DNA of 38,141 bases. Source: Spirochaetales bacterium (GTDB lineage Bacteria > Spirochaetota > Spirochaetia > Sphaerochaetales > Sphaerochaetaceae). This document shows positions 18,759 to 35,144 of the stretch, in pieces; positions within the stretch are counted from its first letter, which is position 1, and the number at the start of each line of letters is the position of its first letter. The notes beneath the pieces were generated by a model that worked only from the letters and a program-made list of their open reading frames with translations, had not been told where the DNA came from and searched no databases. The DNA is taken from NCBI GenBank assembly GCA_017618315.1, contig JAFZUN010000294.1, forward strand, positions 1 to 38,141, given 5' to 3'. Made by a program: the position numbers and the translations under genes.

Positions 18759-20515
18759 ATGGCGCCGATGATCAAGAAGCTTACAAAACAGATGCTGCTT
18801 GCACAGGTCCTGTCTGTGCTGACCACCTCAATCTGCATGCTTGTGGACAGCCTTGTCATAGGGCGCTGCCTCGGTGTCGGCGCGGTGGCCGCATACGGGC
18901 TCTCAAGTCCCATCCTTCTGATCATCGGGGGCAAGGCACAATCCTCTCGGCCGGGGTGCAGGCTTCCTGCAGCAAATCAATCGGAAAAGGCCAGATAGAT
19001 GAGGCTAACAAGGGTTACTCGTCCGCAGTGGGACCTGCAGTGGGGTTGTCGTTGTTTTTCCTGTTATTTGTGGTTGTCCTTCAGAACTTCATCCCTACAT
19101 GGATGGGAGCAGGCAAATCAGGTGATCTCTTTGAGTCCACAAGAGGCTATCTGATTGGTTTCACCATCGGAGCCCCTGCATGCATGGTGGCGCTTGTCAT
19201 GATCCCGTTCCTGCAGATGGCCGGACAGATGGCACTTCTTATATCAGCTGTGGTGGCAATGACCGTTACAGACATAGCCCTGGACCTTGTCAACGCCTAC
19301 GTGCTTCACTGGGGTCTTTTCGGCATGGGTCTTGCCTCTGCCCTGAGCTACTATGTGGCCCTTCTGGTGGCTATCTGGTATTTCTTCTCCAGTAAAAGCA
19401 TCTTCAAGTTCAGATTCCAGAATGTCAGCCTCTCAAAGGTGGCTGAGCTGTTCAAGAGCGCAATTCCATCAGTGTTCAACATCGGCACAGGTGTGGTGCT
19501 TGTCTTTCTGATCAACAAGATTCTTCTCAGGATAAACGGAAGCGCCGCGGTTGCCGCATACTCTGTGATGACCACACTGGGAAACGCAAGCAACTGCATC
19601 TCCACCGGAGTCTACGGGGTGTCTCTCACCCTTACGGGAATCCTTTATCAGGAGGAGGACAAGACAGGTCTGAAAGTCCTTTTAAAGACATTCATGCCAA
19701 GATGCGTGATTATGGGACTGGCTGTGGGGGCCTTCCTTATGACATGCTCGCCGTTCCTTGTGGATCTTTTCCTCACGGAAGGCGGCGGGGAATCCAAGAC
19801 CATGGCCATAACCGGACTCAGGATTTATGCGCTTGGTCTCATCCCGTGCTGCATCAACAACGCCTTCAAGGGATATCTTCAGGGCTCTGACAGGATCAAG
19901 GCCATAGTGAACTACTCGCTTGCAGAAGGGCTTCTGGTTCCTGCACTGTTTGCACTGATCCTGAGCATCCCGTTCGGAACAACGGGAGTCTGGTTCTACT
20001 TTGTCATAGGAGAAACCCTGGCACTACTCGGTTTCAGCGTCCTTAAGTGGAAGAGGGCAAAGCGCATCTCATTTGCCATGGACACATACCTGGATTTCAA
20101 GAAAGGCTTCGGTGTCAGCCCTGACAACATGCTGGAGTTCGACCTCAAGACAATCCAGGAGGTGGCGCCGGCAGCGGAGGAGGCTGAGAGATTCTGCATA
20201 GAGCACGGACAGACCGAGATGACCGGAAAGTATGTAGCCCTCTGCGTCGAGGAGATGGCAGGCAACATAATCAGGTACGGTTTCTCATCAAAGGGCAAGA
20301 ACAGCATGTCCGTCAGAATCCAGCACAAGGATAACCGGTGGGTCATCCGTTTCCGCGATGACTGCAGGGCATTTGATCCGCTGCATTATGTCTTCAAGAA
20401 GAAAGGGCCCAACATCTCAGGAATAAAACTCATGATGAACATAGCCGATGAGGCAAGATACACATACTCGCTGAACCTGAACAACCTCATGCTGGTTGTG
20501 AACGGAGGTAAATGA
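18759..20515 (+). pseudogene. MATE-type transporter fused to an RsbW-like ATPase domain; single-base frameshift
   Basis: The product is split across two frames. The first 57 codons from 18759 end in LSSPILLIIGG. The rest continues in the -1 frame (GTILSAGVQASCSKSIGKGQ onward) to 20515. The break falls in a run of five G at 18927-18931; one more G would give an unbroken frame of about 585 residues. The transporter has the MATE-like two-half fold. From about nt 20150 a C-terminal HATPase_c (anti-sigma-kinase type) domain follows. It has EEMAGNIIRYGF (glutamates at 20249 and 20252, Asn at 20264), FRDDCRAFDP and GIKLMMNIADEA. A GTG at 18956 could start the second part, but without the first helix. 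Overlaps the next gene. Confidence 0.8.
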
Positions 20516-24851: not shown

Positions 24852-24888
24852 CAGGACTGTCGAATAGAAGCGACGGTCCTGCTTTTTT
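24852..24888 (+). terminator. Terminator of the TctCBA operon
   Basis: An 11-bp stem with one internal mismatch (CAGGACTGTCG at 24852-24862 with CGACGGTCCTG at 24871-24881) is followed by CTTTTTTAT. On the minus strand the same hairpin precedes a moderately T-rich stretch, so it may also end the convergent symporter gene, whose stop is at 24887. Confidence 0.85.
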
Positions 24889-26482
24889 ATACCCGTTGTC
24901 TGAGACGCTCCAGGTTTACTTTTCCCAGCGAATTGCCCAGCAGAGTGATCTGGCACTGCAGGCAGTAGTTGTTCACAGCAACGGTCAGGAATTCGAGAAC
25001 CGCATTGATTGAGATGATGATTGAGAGCGATTGCGCATTGATTCCAAGCTGCGAGAACAGGATTGAGAAGCACACCGTTGTTCCTCCGATCACCGGGGGA
25101 GTGGCGACGGAAAGTATGAACGAAAGCAGGAACGCGGCCAACAGCCATGCCCATGTCACCTCGATTCCAACAAGATTCGCCGTAAAGAGGCTGCATGCGG
25201 TGAATACAATGCAGTAGCCGGGACGGAACAGGATGCCGCCCAGATTGTATGCCAGTGGCGCAAAGCTGTCATCCACGCCAAGGTCTCCGATCATCGTGTC
25301 GATTGTCGTGGAGAAAGCCGCGCCGACGCTTGCGCTCGAGAGGGAGATCATGAACGCAGGAAGCAGTTTGCGCATGAAGATGCGGATTCCCACCTTCAGC
25401 CTGCGGCAGACCACCAGGGTGTAGACAATTATGGTGACTGCTTCACCGATAGCGACAATCAGAATCAGCTTTGAATAACTCTGGATCAGAGAGCGCTGAT
25501 CGGACAAGATCTGCGAGCATATCATGAGTCCCACATAGATGGGGATGAATCGGTTGAGGTATGTGTTGGAGAGAACAGCCACCGTATTGGCCTCATCGAA
25601 TATCTCTGTCAGCCTGTCGGCTTTCCGTCCCATCTTAAGCATGGCAATTCCGAACATGGCGCCTATGATGACGATATGGACTGAGTTGAACTCCAGAATG
25701 GGCGAAAGGATGTTGTTGGGCACAAAGTCTATGATGATTTTCCAGAAATCATAGAAATCAATCGCCATCTTATTTGAGAATCCGAATTTCATTCCCGGCA
25801 CTAGCCACGCGGTATTGATCAGCGTGAGGATGAACGCCACCATCAGGAATGAATGGATCATCTTCTTGCCGACTGTGCTGAAGGTGGATATGTCTCCTAG
25901 CCGTACTATGCCCAGGGCGATGGAGCCGAAGCACATCAGGGTTGCCATGACACACAGAAGCCCTGTGAATGCATTAGTTACCGGATATATGACTTTGGTC
26001 GCGATATCCATCGCCGAGCCCGGGAACAATGTCTTGACGGCAAACGCTATGACCACGCCAGAGACTATTCCGATCAGGATGGACAGAAGCTGGTTTATCT
26101 TCTGCTTTTTCGCCACGGTGAATGTGACGAGGTTCGCTCCGCCCCTATAGCGCCAAGCCATGTCCAGCGTTTCGGAATTTGCCATAAGCGAACCCATGAC
26201 CGAGATGTCGGACTCCTTTTCTTCAAATGGGTTGAAGCTGTTGCCGCGAATGCGCAATGACACCCGCAGCGAACCGAAGAAGCTGGAAAACCGCAGTGAA
26301 GCCAGAGCTTCATCGGATAGAGCATCCCTGTATTTGAGCATGACCTCCTCTAGGAACAGATTCAGCCTAAGTGCATCATTCTTGTCTATGTTTGCCGTTG
26401 AGAGGATCTGCTCAGTCTGCTCAATCGTCTGTGCGATTGATTTCTGATCCAAAGAAAACTTTTCCTGTATTGTCTTGTCCAT
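24887..26482 (-). CDS. SDF-type dicarboxylate/amino-acid:cation symporter with N-terminal RsbW-like domain
   Basis: 531 residues. From residue ~131 it is a DAACS/GltP-like symporter (AMFGIAMLKMGRKADRLTEIFDEANTV; AFMISLSSASVGAAFSTTIDTMI, the serine-rich hairpin; LSFILSVATPPVIGGTTVCF, in place of the usual NMDGT region). It would import dicarboxylates or amino acids with Na+ or H+. Residues 1-130 are not part of the family. ALRLNLFLEEVMLKYRD, LRIRGNSFNPFEE and YRGGANLVTFTV follow the order of N-box, G1-like strand and last strand of an RsbW-type ATPase, but key Asn and Asp residues are replaced (K50, G80), so ATP binding is doubtful. The start ATG lies inside a palindrome, with no Shine-Dalgarno. 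Confidence 0.85.
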   Translation of the reverse strand: MDKTIQEKFSLDQKSIAQTIEQTEQILSTANIDKNDALRLNLFLEEVMLKYRDALSDEALASLRFSSFFGSLRVSLRIRGNSFNPFEEKESDISVMGSLMANSETLDMAWRYRGGANLVTFTVAKKQKINQLLSILIGIVSGVVIAFAVKTLFPGSAMDIATKVIYPVTNAFTGLLCVMATLMCFGSIALGIVRLGDISTFSTVGKKMIHSFLMVAFILTLINTAWLVPGMKFGFSNKMAIDFYDFWKIIIDFVPNNILSPILEFNSVHIVIIGAMFGIAMLKMGRKADRLTEIFDEANTVAVLSNTYLNRFIPIYVGLMICSQILSDQRSLIQSYSKLILIVAIGEAVTIIVYTLVVCRRLKVGIRIFMRKLLPAFMISLSSASVGAAFSTTIDTMIGDLGVDDSFAPLAYNLGGILFRPGYCIVFTACSLFTANLVGIEVTWAWLLAAFLLSFILSVATPPVIGGTTVCFSILFSQLGINAQSLSIIISINAVLEFLTVAVNNYCLQCQITLLGNSLGKVNLERLRQRV

Positions 26483-27026: not shown

Positions 27027-28391
27027 ATGGAAGTAACCTTTCGTGGAGGAGTCCATCCGAAGGGCTGCAAGGAACTGAGCCGTCAGGTTCCTCTTACCAG
27101 GTTCGATGCAAAGGGGGACATTGTCCTTCCTCTCGGACAGGGAATAGGAAAACCGGCAAAGCCTACAGTCAAGAAGGATGATGTTGTCCTGGTAGGACAG
27201 ATAGTTGCGGAGGCAGATGGTTTCATATCATCCAACATAGCCTCCTCGTGCTCCGGAAAAGTCAAGGGCATTGAGAAGCGCCGCACAATCTCAGGTGCAT
27301 CGGTTGACTGCATTGTCATTGAGAATGACGGACAGTACAACATGGTGGAGGGCATTGGAGAGCGTCAGGACCTGAGCTCTATCTCAAATGAGCAAATAAT
27401 TGCCAAGGTCAAGGCCGCCGGAATAATCGGTCTTGGAGGAGCAGGCTTCCCGACGCATGTGAAGCTTGCGCCAAAGGATCCGTCGGCAATCCGATTCATA
27501 ATCGCTAACGGTGCCGAGTGCGAGCCATACATCACATGTAATGACCAGATGATGCGCACGGAGGCTGAGGGAATCCTTGAGGGCCTTGAGATCATGCTCA
27601 GGCTTTTCCCAAATGCCCGGGGTGTCGTGGCAATAGAGGACAACAAGCCTGAGGCAATTGCCGCAATGAATGAGGCTCTCTACAAAAGGCATGCTGACAA
27701 CAGGATCAAGATCCTTCCCCTGAAGACCAAGTATCCACAGGGAGGCGAGCGCAGCCTGATCCAGGTTGTGGCCGGGGTGGATTTCCCCGTGACAAAGCTC
27801 CCTGCAGATGTTGGATGTATTGTCGATAACGTCGGGACAATATACGCCATTGGCCGTGCTGTGGCCTATAATGAACCGCTTTTCACCCATGTTCTGACAA
27901 TCACGGGTGACGCGGTCAAGAATCCGGCAAACTTCATTGTGAGAAACGGCACTTGCGTATCTGAGTTAGTTGAGGCCTGCGGTGGCATTAAGGAAGGCGT
28001 GACCCTCAAGAAGGCGCTCTCCGGCGGGCCAATGATGGGATTCGCGATGAGTACCCTGGATGTACCGGTTGTCAAGACCACAAACGCGGTTACGCTGCTT
28101 GCAGAGGACGGTGTTGAGAAGGCAGAGGCCCAGCAGACCAACTGCCTGCACTGCGGAAGGTGCACCACCGTTTGTCCGCAGGGACTTCTTCCCCAGCTCA
28201 TGGCCGATGCCGTGCATGTGGGCGATCTTGAGCGTTATGAGAAAAAGCTCTACGGCCTGGAGTGCATCTCCTGCGGCAGCTGCACATTTGTCTGCCCTGC
28301 CAAGAGACCTCTGACGCAGATATTCAAGCAGACAAAGGCTGAGATCATGGCTATCAAACGCGCAAAACAGGCGGCAGGAGGTGGAAAATGA
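27027..28391 (+). CDS. rnfC: Rnf complex subunit RnfC
   Basis: 454 residues. RnfC is the peripheral, NADH/NAD+-handling subunit of the ion-translocating ferredoxin:NAD+ oxidoreductase. It opens with the family's FRGGVHPKGCKELS, has the flavin/NADH-binding loop GIIGLGGAGFPTHVKL and ANGAECEPYITCND, and ends with two [4Fe-4S] motifs, CLHCGRCTTVCP (C373-C383) and CISCGSCTFVCP (C413-C423). The start at 27027 (MEVTFRGG) has AAAGGAG about 9 nt upstream; the longer frame from 26982 adds 15 unlike residues that would overlap the leader hairpin. It is the first gene of an eight-gene operon and overlaps rnfDG by 4 bp. Confidence 0.95.
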   Translation: MEVTFRGGVHPKGCKELSRQVPLTRFDAKGDIVLPLGQGIGKPAKPTVKKDDVVLVGQIVAEADGFISSNIASSCSGKVKGIEKRRTISGASVDCIVIENDGQYNMVEGIGERQDLSSISNEQIIAKVKAAGIIGLGGAGFPTHVKLAPKDPSAIRFIIANGAECEPYITCNDQMMRTEAEGILEGLEIMLRLFPNARGVVAIEDNKPEAIAAMNEALYKRHADNRIKILPLKTKYPQGGERSLIQVVAGVDFPVTKLPADVGCIVDNVGTIYAIGRAVAYNEPLFTHVLTITGDAVKNPANFIVRNGTCVSELVEACGGIKEGVTLKKALSGGPMMGFAMSTLDVPVVKTTNAVTLLAEDGVEKAEAQQTNCLHCGRCTTVCPQGLLPQLMADAVHVGDLERYEKKLYGLECISCGSCTFVCPAKRPLTQIFKQTKAEIMAIKRAKQAAGGGK

Positions 28392-29944
28392 ATACTGCGA
28401 TTAACATTTCCTCCGGCCCACACGTAAGGGACAGGTGGTCCACACGTTACATAATGGGAATCGTGTTCCTCTCTCTCATGCCCGCGACAATCGTTGGTGT
28501 GGTGGTACACGGGCTTCATGCATTCCTGGTCATCCTGCTTTCAGTTGTGGCCGCAGTCGGAACAGAGGCCCTGTTCGACATCCTCTGCAAAAAGGGAAAG
28601 AGCTATCTTGACGGCAGCGCAGCGGTGACAGGCCTTCTTCTGGCTCTGTCTCTCTCTCCGGATACCCCGCTGTACGCGCCGGTAATCGGTTCGATCTTTG
28701 CCATACTGGTGGTCAAGTGCTGTTTCGGAGGTCTGGGAAAGAACTTCATCAACCCGGCTCTTGCAGGAAGATGTTTCCTCCTGATCTCGTTCAGCAACTC
28801 AATGACCGTGTTCAAGGTTGACATGGTTTCATCGGCAACCCCGGTTGCAGAGCTTCTTGCCGGAAGGGCTGTCAACGTCACATCAATGTTCCTGGGAACA
28901 TCCAATGCAGTTATTGGAAGCTCAATTGCGGCCCTGCTGCTTGGAGGACTTATCCTTTGGGCATTTGACATAATCCACGGTGAAATCTGCTTCTCGGTCC
29001 TCGGAGGCTTCACATTGTTCGTGGCGCTTTTCGGTGGCCAGGGCTTTGACCCTGTGTTCCTTGCGGCGAACATCTGCGGCGGAGGAGTTGTGATGGGTGC
29101 CTTCTTCATGGCAACCGACTATGTGACATCACCGGTCAGCAAACTGGGACAGATGATCTATGGTCTGATCATCGGTGTGCTCGGAGGCCTTTTCCGCATA
29201 TTCGGATCATCGGCTGACTCATTCAGCTATGCCATTCTGATGGGTAACCTCTTCACACCTCTCATTGACATGTACATCCTTCCGAAGCCGTTCGCATATC
29301 GCAAGAAAGCTCTTGCACGTCAGAGCGGACAGCCGAAGGTCCCGTTCTCCAAGCGGATTCCCAAATCCGTCCTGGTCATCGCACTCATCACGCTTCTTGC
29401 AGGTGCTGCCCTAGGCGGTGTCTACAAGCTGACAGAGGAGAACATCAGGGAGCAGAAGGAGAAGGCGGCATGGCAGTCATACCAGGCGGTTGTCCCGCAG
29501 GCCGTGTCATTCAGGGCAATCCAGGCTCCTGACATCTACGGAAAGATCTATGGCACAAGCTTCGGAAGAACAATGATCAACGAGGCTGTCATAGGAATGG
29601 ATGAGACTGGAAAGACAGTCGGTTATGCAATCTCGACGACATCGTCCGAGGGCTATGACGGCAACATCACGATCTCTGTCGGAATCTCTGCTGACGGTGT
29701 TGTGAACTCAATTGCATTCACGGAGCTTCATGAGACTCCGGGTAAGGGAATGCTCGCAGCAGATGCCTCATTCAAGGATCAGTTCAATGGACGTGCCGTC
29801 ACAAGCTTCAAACTGCTTACAGGTGCAGCTGAGGCCTCAAACGGAATCGACTGCATCTCAGGTGCAACGGTGACGTCAAAGGCCATAGTGAATGCGGTGA
29901 ACGCCGCGTTGGACTTCTTCAACAACGCAAAGGGGGTGCAGTGA
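28388..29944 (+). CDS. rnfDG: RnfD-RnfG fusion protein
   Basis: 518 residues combining two normally separate subunits. Residues 1-~310 are RnfD, an integral membrane protein (FINPALAGRCFLLISF; DYVTSPVSKLGQ; flavin site DMVSSATP with T151). Residues ~325-518 are RnfG. They have one membrane helix (SVLVIALITLLAGAALGGVY), then an external FMN-binding domain with VGYAISTTSSEGYDGNI, LHETPGKG and the covalent-FMN motif DCISGAT (T494). ApbE attaches FMN to both threonines in other Rnf complexes. The RnfD site has S149 where Gly is usual. The frame is continuous with a basic linker (RKKALARQSGQPKVPFSKR), so this is a true fusion. No apbE gene is seen in the window. Confidence 0.93.
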   Translation: MNTAINISSGPHVRDRWSTRYIMGIVFLSLMPATIVGVVVHGLHAFLVILLSVVAAVGTEALFDILCKKGKSYLDGSAAVTGLLLALSLSPDTPLYAPVIGSIFAILVVKCCFGGLGKNFINPALAGRCFLLISFSNSMTVFKVDMVSSATPVAELLAGRAVNVTSMFLGTSNAVIGSSIAALLLGGLILWAFDIIHGEICFSVLGGFTLFVALFGGQGFDPVFLAANICGGGVVMGAFFMATDYVTSPVSKLGQMIYGLIIGVLGGLFRIFGSSADSFSYAILMGNLFTPLIDMYILPKPFAYRKKALARQSGQPKVPFSKRIPKSVLVIALITLLAGAALGGVYKLTEENIREQKEKAAWQSYQAVVPQAVSFRAIQAPDIYGKIYGTSFGRTMINEAVIGMDETGKTVGYAISTTSSEGYDGNITISVGISADGVVNSIAFTELHETPGKGMLAADASFKDQFNGRAVTSFKLLTGAAEASNGIDCISGATVTSKAIVNAVNAALDFFNNAKGVQ

Positions 29945-30621
29945 TGAACAAATACGTTGAAAGACTGTACAACGGTCTCATTAAGGAAAACCCCACCTTG
30001 GTGCTGATGCTGGGCATGTGTCCCACGCTGGCAGTCTCCACCCGCGCCTTCAACGGTATTGGAATGGGACTGAGCACCACTGCAGTTCTGATTCTCTCCA
30101 ACCTGGTGATCTCGCTTCTGCGCAAGGTCATCCCGGATGAGATCAGACTGCCGTCCTACATTGTCATTGTCGCATCCCTTGTCACGGTCACGGAGCTTCT
30201 GATAGAGGCCTATCTGCCTTCGGTTTATGAGGCACTGGGAATCTACATCCCGTTAATCGTCGTCAACTGCATTATCCTTGGACGTGCGGAGGCCTACGCC
30301 AACAAGAACACCCCGCTTCTGTCTGTCATGGACGGAATAGGAATGGGTCTTGGATTCACTGTGGCGCTGACCCTGGCAGGTCTTGTCAGAGAGGTTCTTG
30401 GCAACGGCTCGGCCTTCGGCGTGAGGGTTCTTCCCGCAAGCTGGGAGCCGATGGGAATCTTCGTTCAGCCACCTGGAGCCTTCCTGGTTATTGCGCTGTT
30501 CATAATCATCATGAATGCCATAGGAATCAAGACAAGGCAGAGAAAGCTTGTCGACGGTTGTGACGGATGCTGTGCAAAGTGCACTGCGTCTTGCAAGAGT
30601 GCAGAGGAGGCGTCCAAATGA
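29944..30621 (+). CDS. rnfE: Rnf complex subunit RnfE
   Basis: 225 residues with six membrane helices. RnfE and RnfA are paired, oppositely inserted membrane subunits thought to carry electrons across the membrane. Family blocks are KENPTLVLMLGMCPTLAVSTRAFNGIGMG, YIPLIVVNCIILGRAEAYA and VMDGIGMGLGFTVAL. The cysteines in MCPTLA and VNCII are the likely iron-sulfur ligands. The C-terminus has a short cysteine-rich tail (CDGCCAKCTASC) that I do not recall from standard RnfE. The ATG at 29944 overlaps the fusion-gene stop by one base (TGATG). The GTG at 29941 is less likely. Confidence 0.93.
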   Translation: MNKYVERLYNGLIKENPTLVLMLGMCPTLAVSTRAFNGIGMGLSTTAVLILSNLVISLLRKVIPDEIRLPSYIVIVASLVTVTELLIEAYLPSVYEALGIYIPLIVVNCIILGRAEAYANKNTPLLSVMDGIGMGLGFTVALTLAGLVREVLGNGSAFGVRVLPASWEPMGIFVQPPGAFLVIALFIIIMNAIGIKTRQRKLVDGCDGCCAKCTASCKSAEEASK

Positions 30622-31196
30622 AGAGTCTGATACTTATCATTGTAGGCGGAGCGCTGATCAACAACGTCGTCCTCAACCAGTTCTTGGGAATCTGCTCGTT
30701 CCTTGGTGTGTCTAAGCAGATGAAGGCATCGGCCAGCTTGGGCATGGCGGTCATTTTCGTCATCACTATCGCATCAGCGGTTGCCAATCTGCTTTATACC
30801 TTCATTCTCAAGCCGTTCGGACTTGACTTCATGAAGACCATCGTCTTCATCCTTGTCATTGCCGCACTGGTCCAGATTGTTGAGATGTTCCTGAAGAAGA
30901 CCTCCCCCGGAGTCTACAAGGCGCTGGGAATCTTCCTTCCGCTGATCACAACTAACTGTGCCGTCCTGGGTGTGGCTCTGACCAACGTCCAGAACGATTA
31001 CAACTTCATCGAGAGTGTTCTCGCCGGTTTCGGTACCGCAGTGGGATTCACAATCGCCATTGTGCTTCTCGCAAGTGTCCGTGTCAGAATCAGGGAAGAG
31101 GACCTTCCTGCTCCGCTCAGAGGAGCTCCGATTGTCCTTATTTCGGCGGCATTGATGTCCATTGCCTTCATGGGCTTTGGCGGATTGAGTTTCTAA
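30618..31196 (+). CDS. rnfA: Rnf complex subunit RnfA
   Basis: 192 residues, six membrane helices. It starts LILIIVGGALINNVVLNQFLGICSFLGVSKQ, the RnfA signature, and later has YKALGIFLPLITTNCAVLGVAL. C25 (GICSF) and the cysteine in TTNCAVLG pair with those of RnfE to hold an intramembrane cluster. GAGGAGG precedes the ATG at 30618, which overlaps the rnfE stop by 4 bp; the upstream in-frame ATG at 30567 falls inside rnfE. The length fits the family (about 190). Orientation and gene order (C-DG-E-A-B) match the clostridial-type cluster. Confidence 0.95.
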   Translation: MKSLILIIVGGALINNVVLNQFLGICSFLGVSKQMKASASLGMAVIFVITIASAVANLLYTFILKPFGLDFMKTIVFILVIAALVQIVEMFLKKTSPGVYKALGIFLPLITTNCAVLGVALTNVQNDYNFIESVLAGFGTAVGFTIAIVLLASVRVRIREEDLPAPLRGAPIVLISAALMSIAFMGFGGLSF

Positions 31197-31206
31197 GGGG
31201 GCAGAG

Positions 31207-32022
31207 ATGGCTACAATACTTATAACCACCGCCGTCATCACAGTCGTCGGAGTGATTGTCGGAATTGCCCTTGTCTACACTGGAAAGAAATTCCACGTGG
31301 AGATTGATGAACGCGAGTCCGCCGTACGCGAATGCCTTCCCGGTAACAACTGCGGAGCCTGCGGTTATGCCGGATGCGATGCCATGGCTGCTGCAATAGC
31401 CAAGGGCGAGGCACCTGCCAACGGATGTCCTGTAGGCGGTGCTGCCGTAGCAAAGAAGATCGGAAGCGTGATAGGTGTTGATGCCGATGCTGTTGAGCAG
31501 AAGGTCGCATTCATCAAGTGCAAGGGCTCGTGTGATGTCACACGCGACCAGGCCAACTATATCGGCGTCAGGGATTGCCGCAGTGCTGTCCTTTGCGGAA
31601 TAAGCGTGACGGACTGTGAGTACGGCTGTCTTGGTCTCGGTTCCTGTGCAGCTGTCTGTCCGCAGGATGCCATCACCGTCAAGAACGGGGTGGCCTCCGT
31701 CAACCGTTCTAAGTGCGTCGGATGCGGACTGTGCGCCAAGGCATGTCCCAGAGGCCTCATTGAGCTGATTCCCGCAGATAACTTCGTTGCGGTGCAGTGC
31801 TCCAACAAGGATAGGGGACCGCAGGTCAAGAAAGTCTGCTCGGCAGGATGTATCGGATGCATGCTCTGCACACGCCAGTGCGAGTTTGATGCCATTCATG
31901 TGGAGAACAGCCTGGCACGTGTGGATTACTCCAAGTGCACACAGTGCGGCAAATGCGCCGAAAAGTGTCCTGCAAAGGTGATTCTGCCACCGCTTGGATC
32001 TGCGGCAGGTAAGGAGGCTTGA
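31207..32022 (+). CDS. rnfB: Rnf complex subunit RnfB
   Basis: 271 residues. An N-terminal membrane helix (ITVVGVIVGIALVYTG) is followed by the 4Fe-4S domain CGACGYAGC with C74 as fourth ligand. Four further [4Fe-4S] motifs start at C137 (CEYGCLGLGSCAAVCP), C170, C215 and C244. This is the long, ferredoxin-like clostridial type, longer in clusters than proteobacterial RnfB. RnfB is the entry port for electrons from reduced ferredoxin. It follows rnfA by 10 bp with GGGGG ahead of its ATG, and nrfA begins 2 bp after its stop. Confidence 0.95.
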   Translation: MATILITTAVITVVGVIVGIALVYTGKKFHVEIDERESAVRECLPGNNCGACGYAGCDAMAAAIAKGEAPANGCPVGGAAVAKKIGSVIGVDADAVEQKVAFIKCKGSCDVTRDQANYIGVRDCRSAVLCGISVTDCEYGCLGLGSCAAVCPQDAITVKNGVASVNRSKCVGCGLCAKACPRGLIELIPADNFVAVQCSNKDRGPQVKKVCSAGCIGCMLCTRQCEFDAIHVENSLARVDYSKCTQCGKCAEKCPAKVILPPLGSAAGKEA

Positions 32023-32024
32023 GC

Positions 32025-33263
32025 ATGGAGAAGAATAAGATAATCAAGCTGATAATCGCCATAGTCATCATTGTTGTCGCTGTTGTCCTGATTGGCGGAT
32101 TCTTCGGAGATGACATCATGTATCATCTTAAGAACCGTGGCAATCTTGGCCCGCTGACAAGAGAAGACATCACATTCGATACTTCGATTCCATATGTCTC
32201 GTCCAGCATGCATGCGAACAGTGAAAACAGCTACATCACCGATTATCTGGAACAGGATCCCTATCTGGTGAACATCTATGAGGGATTTGGATTTGCCAAA
32301 GAATACGGAAGTGCAAGAGGCCATGAGTACACTCTTGAGGATGTGGCTGCAACTGCACGCCCGCATGCACTTGCGAATTGCCTGACCTGTAAGACTCCTG
32401 ATTACACGAAGCTGGTCAATGATCTCGGGGTCAGCGCCTATACGCTTGACTTCAACGAGGTCTACGCCACCATGTCTAAGAACATCAGCTGCTACGAATG
32501 CCACGAGACCAAGTCGCGCAACGGCGGCGAGATTGTCATTACACATTCCTATGTCGCCAAGGCCCTTGGGGACAACATGTCAACCATAGACAGCTCCACG
32601 CTTTCATGCGGACAGTGTCATATCGAGTACTACTTCACACCGACCGACAAGGAGACCATGATGCCGTATTCAAGTGTGGCCACCATGACTCCTGAGGCGA
32701 TACTCGAATATTATGACAGCATGGTCATGCCTGACGGCTCAACCGGCTTCTATGACTGGATCCAGCCCAGCACGGGAGCAAAGCTCCTCAAGGCCCAGCA
32801 TCCCGAGATGGAGACTTACCTGCAGGGCAAGCATGCCAACCTCCTGAACTGCGCTGACTGCCATATGGCAATTGAGATGGCGGATGACGGAACCGTTTAC
32901 CACAGTCATTATCTGGAGAGCCCACTTGAAAGCAAGACCATCCTCTCTACCTGTGTCAAGTGCCACGGAGACACCGATATGGTGGCCATGGTCAAGAGGA
33001 TCCAGGATCGCATAACAGACAGGGAGACAGAGGTGGGAAACAAACTCTCCAACCTCAAGAATGCCCTTGCCGCAGCGGTTGCCGGAGGCAAGATGTCGGA
33101 GGCTGATCTTGATCTGGTGCGTAAGCTCTACCGTGAGGCCCAGTGGTTCTTTGACTTCTGCTATGTCGAGAACTCTGAAGGCGCGCACAACTCAGAGCTT
33201 TCTGCCCACTGTCTTGAAGTCTCTGAGCTGCGCATAGATGAGGCCATGGCTCTCCTGAACTGA
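32025..33263 (+). CDS. nrfA: Membrane-anchored cytochrome c nitrite reductase (ammonia-forming)
   Basis: 412 residues with five haem motifs: CLTCK (119-123, the lysine-ligated catalytic haem), CYECH (156), CGQCH (195), CADCH (276) and CVKCH (310). Catalytic residues fit NrfA: R98 (ARGHEY), Tyr in HIEYYF (~202), and H259 in KAQHPE, with K and Q of the same motif as calcium ligands. It reduces nitrite to ammonium with six electrons. The N-terminus is an unbroken hydrophobic helix (IIKLIIAIVIIVVAVVLIGG) without a signal-peptidase site, so it is probably anchored in the membrane. AAGGAGG fixes the start at 32025. No nrfH or nrfBCD is nearby; it lies between rnfB and the ccs genes. Confidence 0.95.
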   Translation: MEKNKIIKLIIAIVIIVVAVVLIGGFFGDDIMYHLKNRGNLGPLTREDITFDTSIPYVSSSMHANSENSYITDYLEQDPYLVNIYEGFGFAKEYGSARGHEYTLEDVAATARPHALANCLTCKTPDYTKLVNDLGVSAYTLDFNEVYATMSKNISCYECHETKSRNGGEIVITHSYVAKALGDNMSTIDSSTLSCGQCHIEYYFTPTDKETMMPYSSVATMTPEAILEYYDSMVMPDGSTGFYDWIQPSTGAKLLKAQHPEMETYLQGKHANLLNCADCHMAIEMADDGTVYHSHYLESPLESKTILSTCVKCHGDTDMVAMVKRIQDRITDRETEVGNKLSNLKNALAAAVAGGKMSEADLDLVRKLYREAQWFFDFCYVENSEGAHNSELSAHCLEVSELRIDEAMALLN

Positions 33264-34342
33264 TGTCTGCCGGCAAGAGGTTTTTAAGATTCATATCCTC
33301 AATGAGATTTGCCATAATCCTTCTGGTGATTCTGGCCATCATGTGCTCCATCGGAAGCCTTGTGACCCAGAACCAGAGCTACTCATGGTATGCAGCGCGT
33401 TACTCTGAACGGACCGCGGCACTGATTATTGCCCTGCATCTGGACGATGCCTTCCACAGCTGGTATTTCATCCTGATAACGGCTTTTTTGTGCATCAACC
33501 TGCTGTTCTGCAACATAATCAGGCTTCCTGGTCTGGTGAAGCGTACAAGAAATGGAGGCACACTGAGAGAGCGCCTGGGAATCTGGGGAGCATGGATAAC
33601 CCATGTTGGGGTCCTGCTTCTGATTCTGGGCTTCGGCCTTGGGCAGTTCACCCATAAGGAATATGTGGCCTATGGTGTTCCCGGCCAGACAATGGCAATA
33701 GGGGACACAGGCCTTATTCTGACTATCAATGATTTCAGGATAGACCTCAGGGATGATGACACCGTTGAGCAGTACACCTCAGAGATCACAGTCTACGATA
33801 TTGCAAGCGGCTCATCAGGAAAAAGTGCCTCTGTCAGCGTCAACCATCCTGCTGACATATATGGCCTGAGGTTTTACCAGAACTCAACAGGCTGGGCCGC
33901 AAGGGTTACGGTTGACAAGGGAGGTGAGGCCCTTCAGGACACCATAGTCTGTGCGGGGGATTACCTTGTTGTGACGGACAAACCTGATCTTGTCATCTAC
34001 TTCAACGCTTTCTATCCGGATTATGTCCTTGTCTCAGGCTACGGACCTGCAACAGCCTCCGGCAAGCTGAATAACCCCGGGTACCTGTATTCAGTCTATT
34101 ATCAGGGGCAGATACTCGGCATGAATGTCCTGTTTTCAGGTGAGGTTCTTACAATTGACGACTATAGCGTGCATTTCTCGGAACCGCAGAGCTACACGCT
34201 GATCCAGATCAAGAAGGACTCATTTACGGCACTTGCCTTTACGGGCGGAATCATCATTCTTATAGGACTGATTGTAAGCCTGTATGTGAGACCCAGGAAA
34301 GTAACCGACAAGCAGACAGGGGGAGAGGATGCTTCAAGTTGA
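33263..34342 (+). CDS. ccsB: Cytochrome c biogenesis protein CcsB/ResB
   Basis: 359 residues, ResB-like, with N-terminal helices (FLRFISSMRFAIILLVILAIMCSIGSLVTQ), a second pair near residues 65-130 (WYFILITAFLCINLLFCNIIRLPGL; GAWITHVGVLLLILGFGLG), a large external domain and a last C-terminal helix. ResB and ResC form the System II haem channel and ligase that attaches haem to cytochromes outside the cytoplasm. Here the obvious client is NrfA, whose stop overlaps this ATG by one base. System II needs a special partner for CXXCK sites in some bacteria; whether this pair does both is unknown. Confidence 0.9.
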   Translation: MSAGKRFLRFISSMRFAIILLVILAIMCSIGSLVTQNQSYSWYAARYSERTAALIIALHLDDAFHSWYFILITAFLCINLLFCNIIRLPGLVKRTRNGGTLRERLGIWGAWITHVGVLLLILGFGLGQFTHKEYVAYGVPGQTMAIGDTGLILTINDFRIDLRDDDTVEQYTSEITVYDIASGSSGKSASVSVNHPADIYGLRFYQNSTGWAARVTVDKGGEALQDTIVCAGDYLVVTDKPDLVIYFNAFYPDYVLVSGYGPATASGKLNNPGYLYSVYYQGQILGMNVLFSGEVLTIDDYSVHFSEPQSYTLIQIKKDSFTALAFTGGIIILIGLIVSLYVRPRKVTDKQTGGEDASS

Positions 34343-35144
34343 GAATACCTTATTCACAATTGTAATGATTTCTTATTTTGTGGCAATGATAGCATATTTC
34401 ATCTATGTTGCTTCAAAGAAGGACATTGTTTCAAAGGTAGCCTTCGGAATTCAGGTCTTCGGATTTGTGCTCCATACCGTCGCGATCGTATGCCGCGGAA
34501 TAGGGGCAGGGCGTCTGCCGCTGACCAACCAGTATGAGTTCGCCACCTCATTTGCATGGGGACTCTGTCTTCTGAGCTTGGTCTTCATCATTCGCTTCCG
34601 TTTCTATGTCATGGGTGCGTTCATCTCGCCTGTGGTGTTCCTGATGATAGGTTATGCCGCCATGCAGAGCAGGGAAGTGCGTGAGCTCATGCCCGCACTG
34701 AGGTCGAACTGGCTTGGCTTCCATGTTTCAACGGCCATCATCGCCTATGGCGCTTTCGGTGTCTCGTTTGTGGTCGGCATTATCTTCCTGCTGAGGGACA
34801 GGCTCAAGGCACATGGTTTTCTGGACCAGCACATTCCGGACAAGGAGAAGCTTGATCTTATAGAATACCGAAGCGTTGCCCCGGGAATTCTGTTTCTGAC
34901 TTTCACCATCATCACCGGTGCCATCTGGGCGGAGCGTGCCTGGGGAAGCTACTGGTCGTGGGATCCGAAGGAGACCTGGTCACTTGTCACGTGGATAATC
35001 TATGCCACGTACCTGCACCTGCGCATCCGACGCGGCTACAAGGGAAAGAGCGCGGCTGTGTTTGCGGTGATAGGCTTCATCTGTGTCCTGTTCACCTATG
35101 TTGGCGTTAACACTCTCCTGCCCGGAGTACATAGCTATAAATAA
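34329..35144 (+). CDS. ccsA: Cytochrome c biogenesis protein CcsA/ResC
   Basis: 271 residues with about eight membrane helices. The haem-handling tryptophan-rich motif WGSYWSWDPKETW is at residues 205-217. Conserved histidines are H132 (GFHVSTAIIAYG) and H230 (TYLHLR), with H49 near the first. It is the haem-presenting half of the System II synthase. It overlaps ccsB by 14 bp with GGGGGAGAGG just before the ATG, so synthesis is coupled. It is the last gene of the operon; I see no clear terminator before the convergent lipoprotein gene, 11 bp away. Confidence 0.94.
   Translation: MLQVENTLFTIVMISYFVAMIAYFIYVASKKDIVSKVAFGIQVFGFVLHTVAIVCRGIGAGRLPLTNQYEFATSFAWGLCLLSLVFIIRFRFYVMGAFISPVVFLMIGYAAMQSREVRELMPALRSNWLGFHVSTAIIAYGAFGVSFVVGIIFLLRDRLKAHGFLDQHIPDKEKLDLIEYRSVAPGILFLTFTIITGAIWAERAWGSYWSWDPKETWSLVTWIIYATYLHLRIRRGYKGKSAAVFAVIGFICVLFTYVGVNTLLPGVHSYK

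Follow-up and report, generated by a model that had tools for sequence, protein, structure and literature searches.

Multihaem cytochromes encoded next to rnf genes have been described before. In Methanosarcina acetivorans, the gene of MmcA adjoins rnf, mmcA and rnf were earlier reported to be cotranscribed, and an outward transfer of electrons from Rnf to MmcA has been proposed (PMC6703419, PMC12174285; these and the papers below are cited from their accessible passages). Here we describe a related layout in a bacterium of the Sphaerochaetaceae, in which the gene of a pentahaem cytochrome c nitrite reductase, NrfA, belongs to the rnf gene row. The stretch analysed (the window) is the whole 38,141-nucleotide contig JAFZUN010000294.1 (C132) of the Spirochaetales bacterium assembly GCA_017618315.1, a genome of 1.9 Mb in 352 contigs that is estimated to be 73% complete. 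Relatives within its genome family include several from rumen samples, and the bacterium is probably of a rumen type.

As in Methanosarcina, the gene of a membrane-bound multihaem c-type cytochrome adjoins rnf, and the cytochrome gene of the window follows the rnf genes in one tightly spaced row, a likeness of gene layout. MmcA differs in having seven haems and in being an archaeal conduit to anthraquinone-2,6-disulfonate or methanophenazine, whereas the window block is bacterial, contains a fused RnfDG and maturation genes, and has as its cytochrome a predicted terminal nitrite reductase. In Desulfovibrionaceae a decahaem CbcC homologue is encoded beside the rnf operon (PMC11434368), but the accessible text does not describe it as a nitrite reductase and rnfB is often missing there. 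For Christensenellales clusters with multi-flavinylated or multihaem RnfG, branching of Rnf to extracytosolic acceptors has been proposed (PMC8238504); in that case the haem domain is inside RnfG, and NrfA is not named in the passages available. The NrfHA system of Bacteroides thetaiotaomicron shares NrfA with the window, and ccsA and ccsB adjoin nrfAH (PMC10434189). Bacteroides and Sporomusa (NrfH1A1), however, do have NrfH, and their rnf genes stand at a locus of their own (PMC10434189, PMC12780646), whereas in the window block NrfH was not found and NrfA has a membrane helix of its own.

Our literature search, which covered titles, the starts of abstracts and passages, mostly outside subscription journals, turned up no report of nrfA in an rnf operon. 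Such an arrangement was likewise not reported in the accessible parts of a protein flavinylation paper (PMC11334425), a survey of rumen electron transport (PMC6479175), PMC10811737, PMC12578642, PMC10290634 and PMC4046663. The association of Rnf with a multihaem cytochrome is thus already known; what is new here is that the attached cytochrome is a predicted terminal reductase.

Anatomy and conservation of the rnf-nrfA block

Eight open reading frames (ORFs) run head to tail in one direction over positions 27027-35144 of the window. They and the sites discussed below are as follows (FMN, flavin mononucleotide; NAD, nicotinamide adenine dinucleotide).

27027..28391, plus strand: rnfC, NADH/FMN- and 4Fe-4S-binding subunit (TIGR01945 484 bits; 7zc6_C 420 bits)
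28388..29944, plus strand: rnfDG, one ORF of 518 residues with NQR2_RnfD_RnfE and FMN_bind domains
29858-29878, plus strand: flavin site SGATVTS of RnfG, residues 491-497 of RnfDG
29944..30621, plus strand: rnfE, with an alternative start GTG at 29941
30618..31196, plus strand: rnfA, its ATG overlapping the rnfE stop
31207..32022, plus strand: rnfB, polyferredoxin subunit on the ferredoxin side
32025..33263, plus strand: nrfA, predicted membrane-anchored pentahaem cytochrome c nitrite reductase
32031..32093, plus strand: N-terminal membrane helix of NrfA, residues 3-23 (21 residues)
32118..32177, plus strand: conserved segment after the helix, NrfA residues 32-51, consensus MYHLKNRGxLGPLTRxDI
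32379..32393, plus strand: catalytic haem motif CLTCK, NrfA residues 119-123
33263..34342, plus strand: resB (ccsB), cytochrome c maturation system II (PF05140 150 bits; without an NCBIfam match)
34329..35144, plus strand: ccsA, cytochrome c maturation system II (TIGR03144 260 bits)

All six Rnf subunits (C, D, G, E, A and B, with D and G in one ORF) and both proteins of maturation system II are present. In gene order, the genes overlap by 4, 1 and 4 nucleotides at the first three junctions, are 10 and 2 nucleotides apart at the next two, and overlap by 1 and 14 at the last two; the gap of 2 nucleotides separates rnfB from nrfA. A sequence-only reading of this DNA had described eight genes coupled by overlaps or gaps of no more than 10 nucleotides, and both the junction lengths and the family matches agree with it. 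Where rnfB meets nrfA, no site resembling a terminator was reported, and the promoter and terminator scans overall gave nothing decisive. The same reading had noted that NrfH and NrfBCD are absent here; by eye, no NrfH-, NrfB-, NrfC- or NrfD-like gene stood among the ORFs of the window either (the profile scan covered the eight block proteins only).

Named genomes were scanned with NrfA. The scan yielded 275 relatives, the best 80 of which were kept as loci: nine carry the title of spirochaetes or Sphaerochaetaceae, and the rest that of Clostridia and other Bacillota, mostly from the ruminant gut. One of them, L037, looked like the same NrfA beside a quite different Rnf, and such a case would have counted as strong evidence. 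This candidate was rejected, as the last 1329 bases of the contig (9808-11136) match L031 with 99.7% identity, and the point where this match breaks off falls inside rnfB; we therefore take the contig to be chimeric. Its removal left 79 loci, though it still serves as an outgroup row in the RnfC tree and its genome is among the 60 searched with profiles.

All 76 loci with at least 0.9 kb before nrfA had rnfB there, on the same strand and within 4 kb, and in 67 of them the distance was at most 120 nucleotides. The full Rnf set was found in 59 of the 60 loci with 5.3 kb upstream, the remaining one (L094) being cut by a contig end. RnfD and RnfG were fused in every locus where both were readable, apart from the chimera. 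Behind nrfA, resB and ccsA followed in 62 of the 65 loci with 2.7 kb downstream. Two of the exceptions, L062 and L082, are rnf-nrfA blocks without these genes downstream of nrfA; the third, L065, is described below. Outside the block, the most widespread family, a broad one resembling ATP-binding cassette transporters, occurred in 16 loci and the next ones in 5. Since the same order recurs at loci whose flanks share so little, it is beyond chance. Evolutionary distances within the block were correlated (r 0.23-0.64 over 51 sequences; 0.54 for nrfA-rnfC and 0.52 for nrfA-rnfB), values equalled in 0 to 6 of 300 permutations. These correlations are moderate and, while consistent with joint inheritance, prove little.

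NrfA and the cofactor sites of Rnf

The window protein is a pentahaem NrfA for which reduction of nitrite to ammonium is predicted. It carries one CxxCK motif, CLTCK, followed by the four CxxCH motifs CYECH, CGQCH, CADCH and CVKCH, and CLTCK together with four CxxCH motifs occurs in 78 of the 79 NrfA sequences (the window and 78 loci). The ARGH, EYYF and KAQHP regions, which we take to be those of the catalytic arginine, tyrosine and histidine, are kept in 78, 78 and 76 of the 79, and the catalytic surroundings of the Escherichia coli and Desulfovibrio enzymes align with the window protein. PF02335 was matched with 246 bits against a cut-off of 24.1; the curated scores of the NCBIfam models for ammonia-forming NrfA were not reached (NF008339, 205 of 595 bits; TIGR03152, 169 of 692 bits). 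A structural model with a mean predicted local distance difference test (pLDDT) score of 73.7 superposed on E. coli NrfA (1gu6) with a Z score of 30.2 and a root-mean-square deviation of 3.1 over 344 residues. The match begins at residue 54, so that the N-terminal helix is outside the matched fold.

This helix had been called uncleaved in the sequence-only reading. Its presence at residues 3-23 was confirmed, and it is presumably uncleaved; the segment directly after it is more conserved (mean about 0.7) than the helix (0.5), the average of the protein being 0.78. With a loose pattern, a segment of the type MYHLKNRGxLGPLTRxDI was found in 62 of the 79 sequences, and in a 40-row alignment at least 90% conservation was reached by tyrosine 33, histidine 34, arginine 38, glycine 42, proline 43, leucine 44, arginine 46, aspartate 48 and isoleucine 49. 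Judged by this conservation, the segment is a candidate docking element.

Some loci carry unusual forms of NrfA. A tandem protein of 811 amino acids with ten haem motifs is encoded in L058 (9992-12427), by eye with a membrane helix in the first half only. The NrfA of L081 (9884-11878) bears C-terminal repeats of the type IDPETMMRPRP. The single sequence without the full set of haem motifs, that of L065 (1620-2894), lacks CGQCH; resB is behind it, ccsA was not found, and the locus is perhaps decaying.

The Rnf of the window has all the cofactor sites that we looked for: the 2Fe-2S cysteines of RnfA and RnfE, the covalent-FMN motif SSATP in the RnfD part of RnfDG, the flavin site of the RnfG part (101.8 bits against a TIGR01947 cut-off of 102), and, in RnfC, the pocket motif GLGGAGFPT and both iron-sulfur motifs. 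A structural model of RnfDG was weak (pLDDT 67.5) and was set aside. Among the linked loci, both iron-sulfur motifs of RnfC were present in 60 of 60 and its NADH/FMN pocket in 59, so that Rnf probably still serves NAD too. The second cysteine motif was found in RnfA of 72 of 72 loci and in RnfE of 70 of 70. Strict patterns missed the first motif of RnfE in 2 of 70 loci, that of RnfA in 3 of 72 and the RnfG flavin site in 5 of 69, and on inspection the cysteine or threonine was kept in all but L033, which is cut. The RnfG flavin motif was thus found in 64 of the 69 loci, the other five being variants that by eye retain the threonine. The RnfD flavin pattern was found in 65 of 66 loci, the exception being L031; a supposed loss of this motif was dropped because the solved Clostridium and Acetobacterium RnfD share the same form, TTATP. 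The four strict cysteine patterns of RnfB were missed in 5, 5, 3 and 39 of 75 loci.

Among the 76 loci, a few variants, each known from one to three cases, depart from the common block. In L100 (6034-8265), RnfB and NrfA share a single 743-residue frame, in which the NrfA helix lies between them; an internal Shine-Dalgarno-like stretch and an ATG precede the NrfA start, and a separate NrfA may also be made. Two further fusions suggested by ORF length were rejected, as the overlong ORF of L061 is in another frame and the extra length of L081 is its C-terminal repeat extension. The exception in the RnfC pocket, L106 (1001-2350), has an intact rnfC frame from which the NADH/FMN pocket motifs are gone, with both iron-sulfur motifs kept and the block otherwise normal; nature thus provides a case in which an Rnf that lacks the NAD arm could be tested. 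Between rnfB and nrfA, L094 (3278-5428) and L099 (7137-9308) encode a protein with two FMN-binding domains and a flavin adenine dinucleotide (FAD) reductase domain, and L096 (6507-9976) a similar protein with one FMN-binding domain plus tatA-, tatB- and tatC-like genes, secretion and Tat names being assigned by eye. Flavin reductases of this sort are already known as extracytosolic acceptors of electrons, as stated in the accessible part of PMC8238504.

Elsewhere in the window, two transporter-like ORFs (18956-20515 and 24887-26482) resembled, by eye, fusions with ATPase domains of the histidine-kinase type, which are C-terminal in the first and N-terminal in the second.

The quinol route and the resident Rnf

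Searches for NrfH, MqnA/D and MenD uncovered no route from quinol to NrfA in these genomes. At the default threshold, the NrfH family PF03264 was matched in 0 of 60 genomes, a setting that also missed the positive control G553 (nrfH before nrfA; a record with masked bases). At an expectation value (E) of 10, some match appeared in 24 of 63 genomes, and only that of the control was over the cut-off (27 bits), the other 62 genomes having none over it. MqnA/D was matched in 10 of 60 genomes at E 0.001 or better and over the cut-off in 2 of 60 (weak matches of 27 and 39 bits that cover the model in part). For MenD the figures were 26 of 60 and 1 of 60 (G168); G149 had a match of 168 bits, below the cut-off, and all other sub-cut-off matches were of 67 bits or less. 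As 14 of 14 control genomes matched MenD and 7 passed the cut-off, the weak matches, including that of the window genome, are probably other thiamine-diphosphate enzymes. The window genome, at 73% completeness, had no NrfH, MqnA/D or MenD over the cut-off and one MenD match of 34 bits. A separate nrfH or a quinone pathway, either of which would have spoken against the sequence-only reading, was therefore not seen there.

ApbE attaches the flavins of Rnf, and it was over the cut-off in 53 of 59 genomes, including that of the window. RnfC_N was found in 57 of 60 genomes; of the ten from Sphaerochaetaceae, eight had exactly one match and two had none because a contig end cuts their rnfC.

NrfA without NrfH also exists apart from rnf. 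In the class of G142, a block-bearing member of the Bacillota, 5 of 391 sampled genomes had NrfA, G142 included. In three of them (G400, G321 and G508), four NrfA genes (L136-L139) stand before resB and ccsA, with neither nrfH nor rnf adjacent; the fifth, G553, has nrfH before nrfA. These four loci resemble the window in the order nrfA-resB-ccsA and in that NrfH was not found. They differ in that their NrfA is 36-43% identical, has an N-terminus resembling, by eye, a lipoprotein signal, and has no adjacent rnf. The NrfH-free nrfA-resB-ccsA arrangement is thus wider than its joining to rnf.

In Sphaerochaetaceae, NrfA and this type of Rnf occur together. RnfC was found in every one of the 139 genomes, with 131 of them passing the cut-off, and NrfA in 10. 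All ten genomes with nrfA have the nrf-type Rnf, with subunits C, D, E, A and B 73-98% and RnfG 64-89% identical to those of the window, as far as available. No resident-type RnfC was found for them among the matches listed (down to about 47 bits, some of the genomes being incomplete). In the genomes without nrfA, 70 RnfC loci from 66 of 129 reached at most 39% identity to the window RnfC, and the nrf type was found in 0 of 66; five congeners without NrfA had 36-39% and a sixth, G131, 32%. By comparison, nrf-linked RnfC of Bacillota had a mean identity of 67% (57 loci).

The RnfC tree (72 rows, midpoint root, with long rows L037, L106, L182 and L178) agrees with this pattern. The 61 nrf-linked sequences formed one group on a long branch (support 100/99), and within it the six from spirochaetes were a single clade (100/99); the ten resident ones stood apart (100/92). 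The spirochaetal clade was nested with two sequences from Oscillospiraceae, with a fork support of 86/95. The nrf-linked Rnf thus seems to have replaced the resident Rnf in Sphaerochaetaceae. Going by the tree, the block was likely transferred to spirochaetes from Clostridia, and the rnf-nrfA block, which rumen spirochaetes share with many Clostridia of the gut, seems to have passed between phyla in one piece.

Electron route and competing explanations

The sequence-only reading had suggested that electrons reach NrfA by way of Rnf. This coupling is now supported well beyond the window by the conservation of the block, by its occurrence together with this Rnf type and by the apparent displacement of the resident Rnf. 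We consider it probable that the block is a quinone-free nitrite-ammonifying branch of Rnf, in which ferredoxin electrons leave at the RnfG flavin to NrfA. Reduced ferredoxin would donate electrons to RnfB; they would pass the 2Fe-2S cluster that RnfA and RnfE hold between them in the membrane, which would be the ion-pumping step, and arrive at the outward-facing FMN of RnfG. From there one branch would lead back through RnfD and RnfC to NAD+, and, when nitrite is present, the other would pass electrons to NrfA, which would make ammonium from nitrite. NrfA would stand next to Rnf on the outward side of the membrane, held by its own helix, its haems attached by ResB and CcsA.

The Acetobacterium Rnf, as described in the accessible part of PMC11889175, follows the same path: electrons pass from RnfB to the RnfA/E cluster, where sodium is moved, and to the periplasmic FMN of RnfG, and then through the non-pumping RnfD and RnfC to NAD+. 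Because pumping at the RnfA/E cluster precedes RnfG, an acceptor at RnfG would preserve the pumping step. In the same structure the RnfB helix contacts the RnfG helix, so that RnfG would be close to a NrfA anchored next to RnfB; the single frame of L100, with the NrfA helix between RnfB and NrfA, fits this topology. Transfer from RnfG to NrfA, docking and a gain of energy are what we infer.

We also entertain, more tentatively, a bolder version that is nearly as easy to credit as to doubt. Rnf and NrfA would form one physical complex, a horizontally mobile, self-contained, quinone-free unit of ferredoxin:nitrite respiration that replaced the resident Rnf of rumen spirochaetes; its NAD arm would be optional (lost in L106), and the outward-facing RnfG flavin would be a general socket for extracytosolic reductases, namely NrfA and, at three loci, the FMN/FAD reductases.

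Several observations weigh against our interpretation. The evidence for the coupling is genomic, and the L100 fusion and the L106 pocket loss are single cases in metagenome assemblies. Picking loci by NrfA hides genomes outside Sphaerochaetaceae that have this Rnf type without NrfA. Two of the 60 genomes (G168 and G149) may make menaquinone; ApbE was below the cut-off or absent in 6 of 59, among them G085 and G120 of the Sphaerochaetaceae; and 21 of 50 non-spirochaetal genomes matched RnfC_N two or three times, in part with scores below the cut-off, so that a genome need not have just one Rnf. NrfA without NrfH also occurs outside the block, as L136-L139 demonstrate. Going by the kept RnfC pocket, the NAD route is probably not abandoned, and NrfA would be a branch and not a replacement. 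In the Methanosarcina parallel, according to the accessible passages, expression of MmcA was unlike that of rnf and MmcA was unneeded on acetate (PMC6703419).

The genes could be cotranscribed while NrfA is fed otherwise, by scavenged menaquinone, with an unrecognised quinol dehydrogenase as the link, or by a diffusible or cell-wall flavin. The lipoprotein-like NrfA that has neither NrfH nor an adjacent rnf must have some other donor, strong MenD-like genes occur in G168 and G149, and second Rnf-like clusters with several FMN-binding stretches are present in some. We nevertheless find a separate feed unlikely, given that no NrfH-family match passed the cut-off in block-bearing genomes, that quinone genes are nearly absent, that the linkage persists across families and two phyla despite changing flanks, and that NrfA and the nrf-type Rnf occur jointly in Sphaerochaetaceae. 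The second clusters, seen in five block-bearing genomes (L193, L194, L195, L200 and L201), have, close to rnfC-D-E-A, at least two FMN-binding stretches that resemble RnfG, and tblastn gave no match to RnfB in them.

An exit of electrons elsewhere in Rnf, for example at the RnfD flavin, or through an extra carrier, is somewhat less likely still. The FMN of RnfD also lies in a pocket open to the outer face, and NrfA shares its frame with RnfB in L100; against this, RnfG is the outer-face subunit with a mobile domain, and the block has no conserved gene for an extra carrier (structural points from the accessible part of PMC11889175). That NrfA mainly detoxifies nitrite, nitric oxide or hydroxylamine, with Rnf giving the electrons and any energy gain incidental, we hold to be very improbable. 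NrfA enzymes do reduce nitric oxide and hydroxylamine, but the fixed order with an ion pump suggests more than detoxification, an argument that is not decisive. The exit from the RnfG flavin to NrfA remains the route that we favour.

If this route is true, many uncultured rumen and gut bacteria would ammonify nitrite directly from ferredoxin via an ion pump, without a quinone pool, which would explain nitrite respiration by organisms that lack quinone genes. Beyond its role as a ferredoxin:NAD enzyme, Rnf would also serve as an outlet that feeds extracytosolic reductases, and the block makes the branching of electrons from Rnf testable. Nitrate is used as a feed additive against methane, and the finding would bear on this use, as the same electrons would otherwise form hydrogen.

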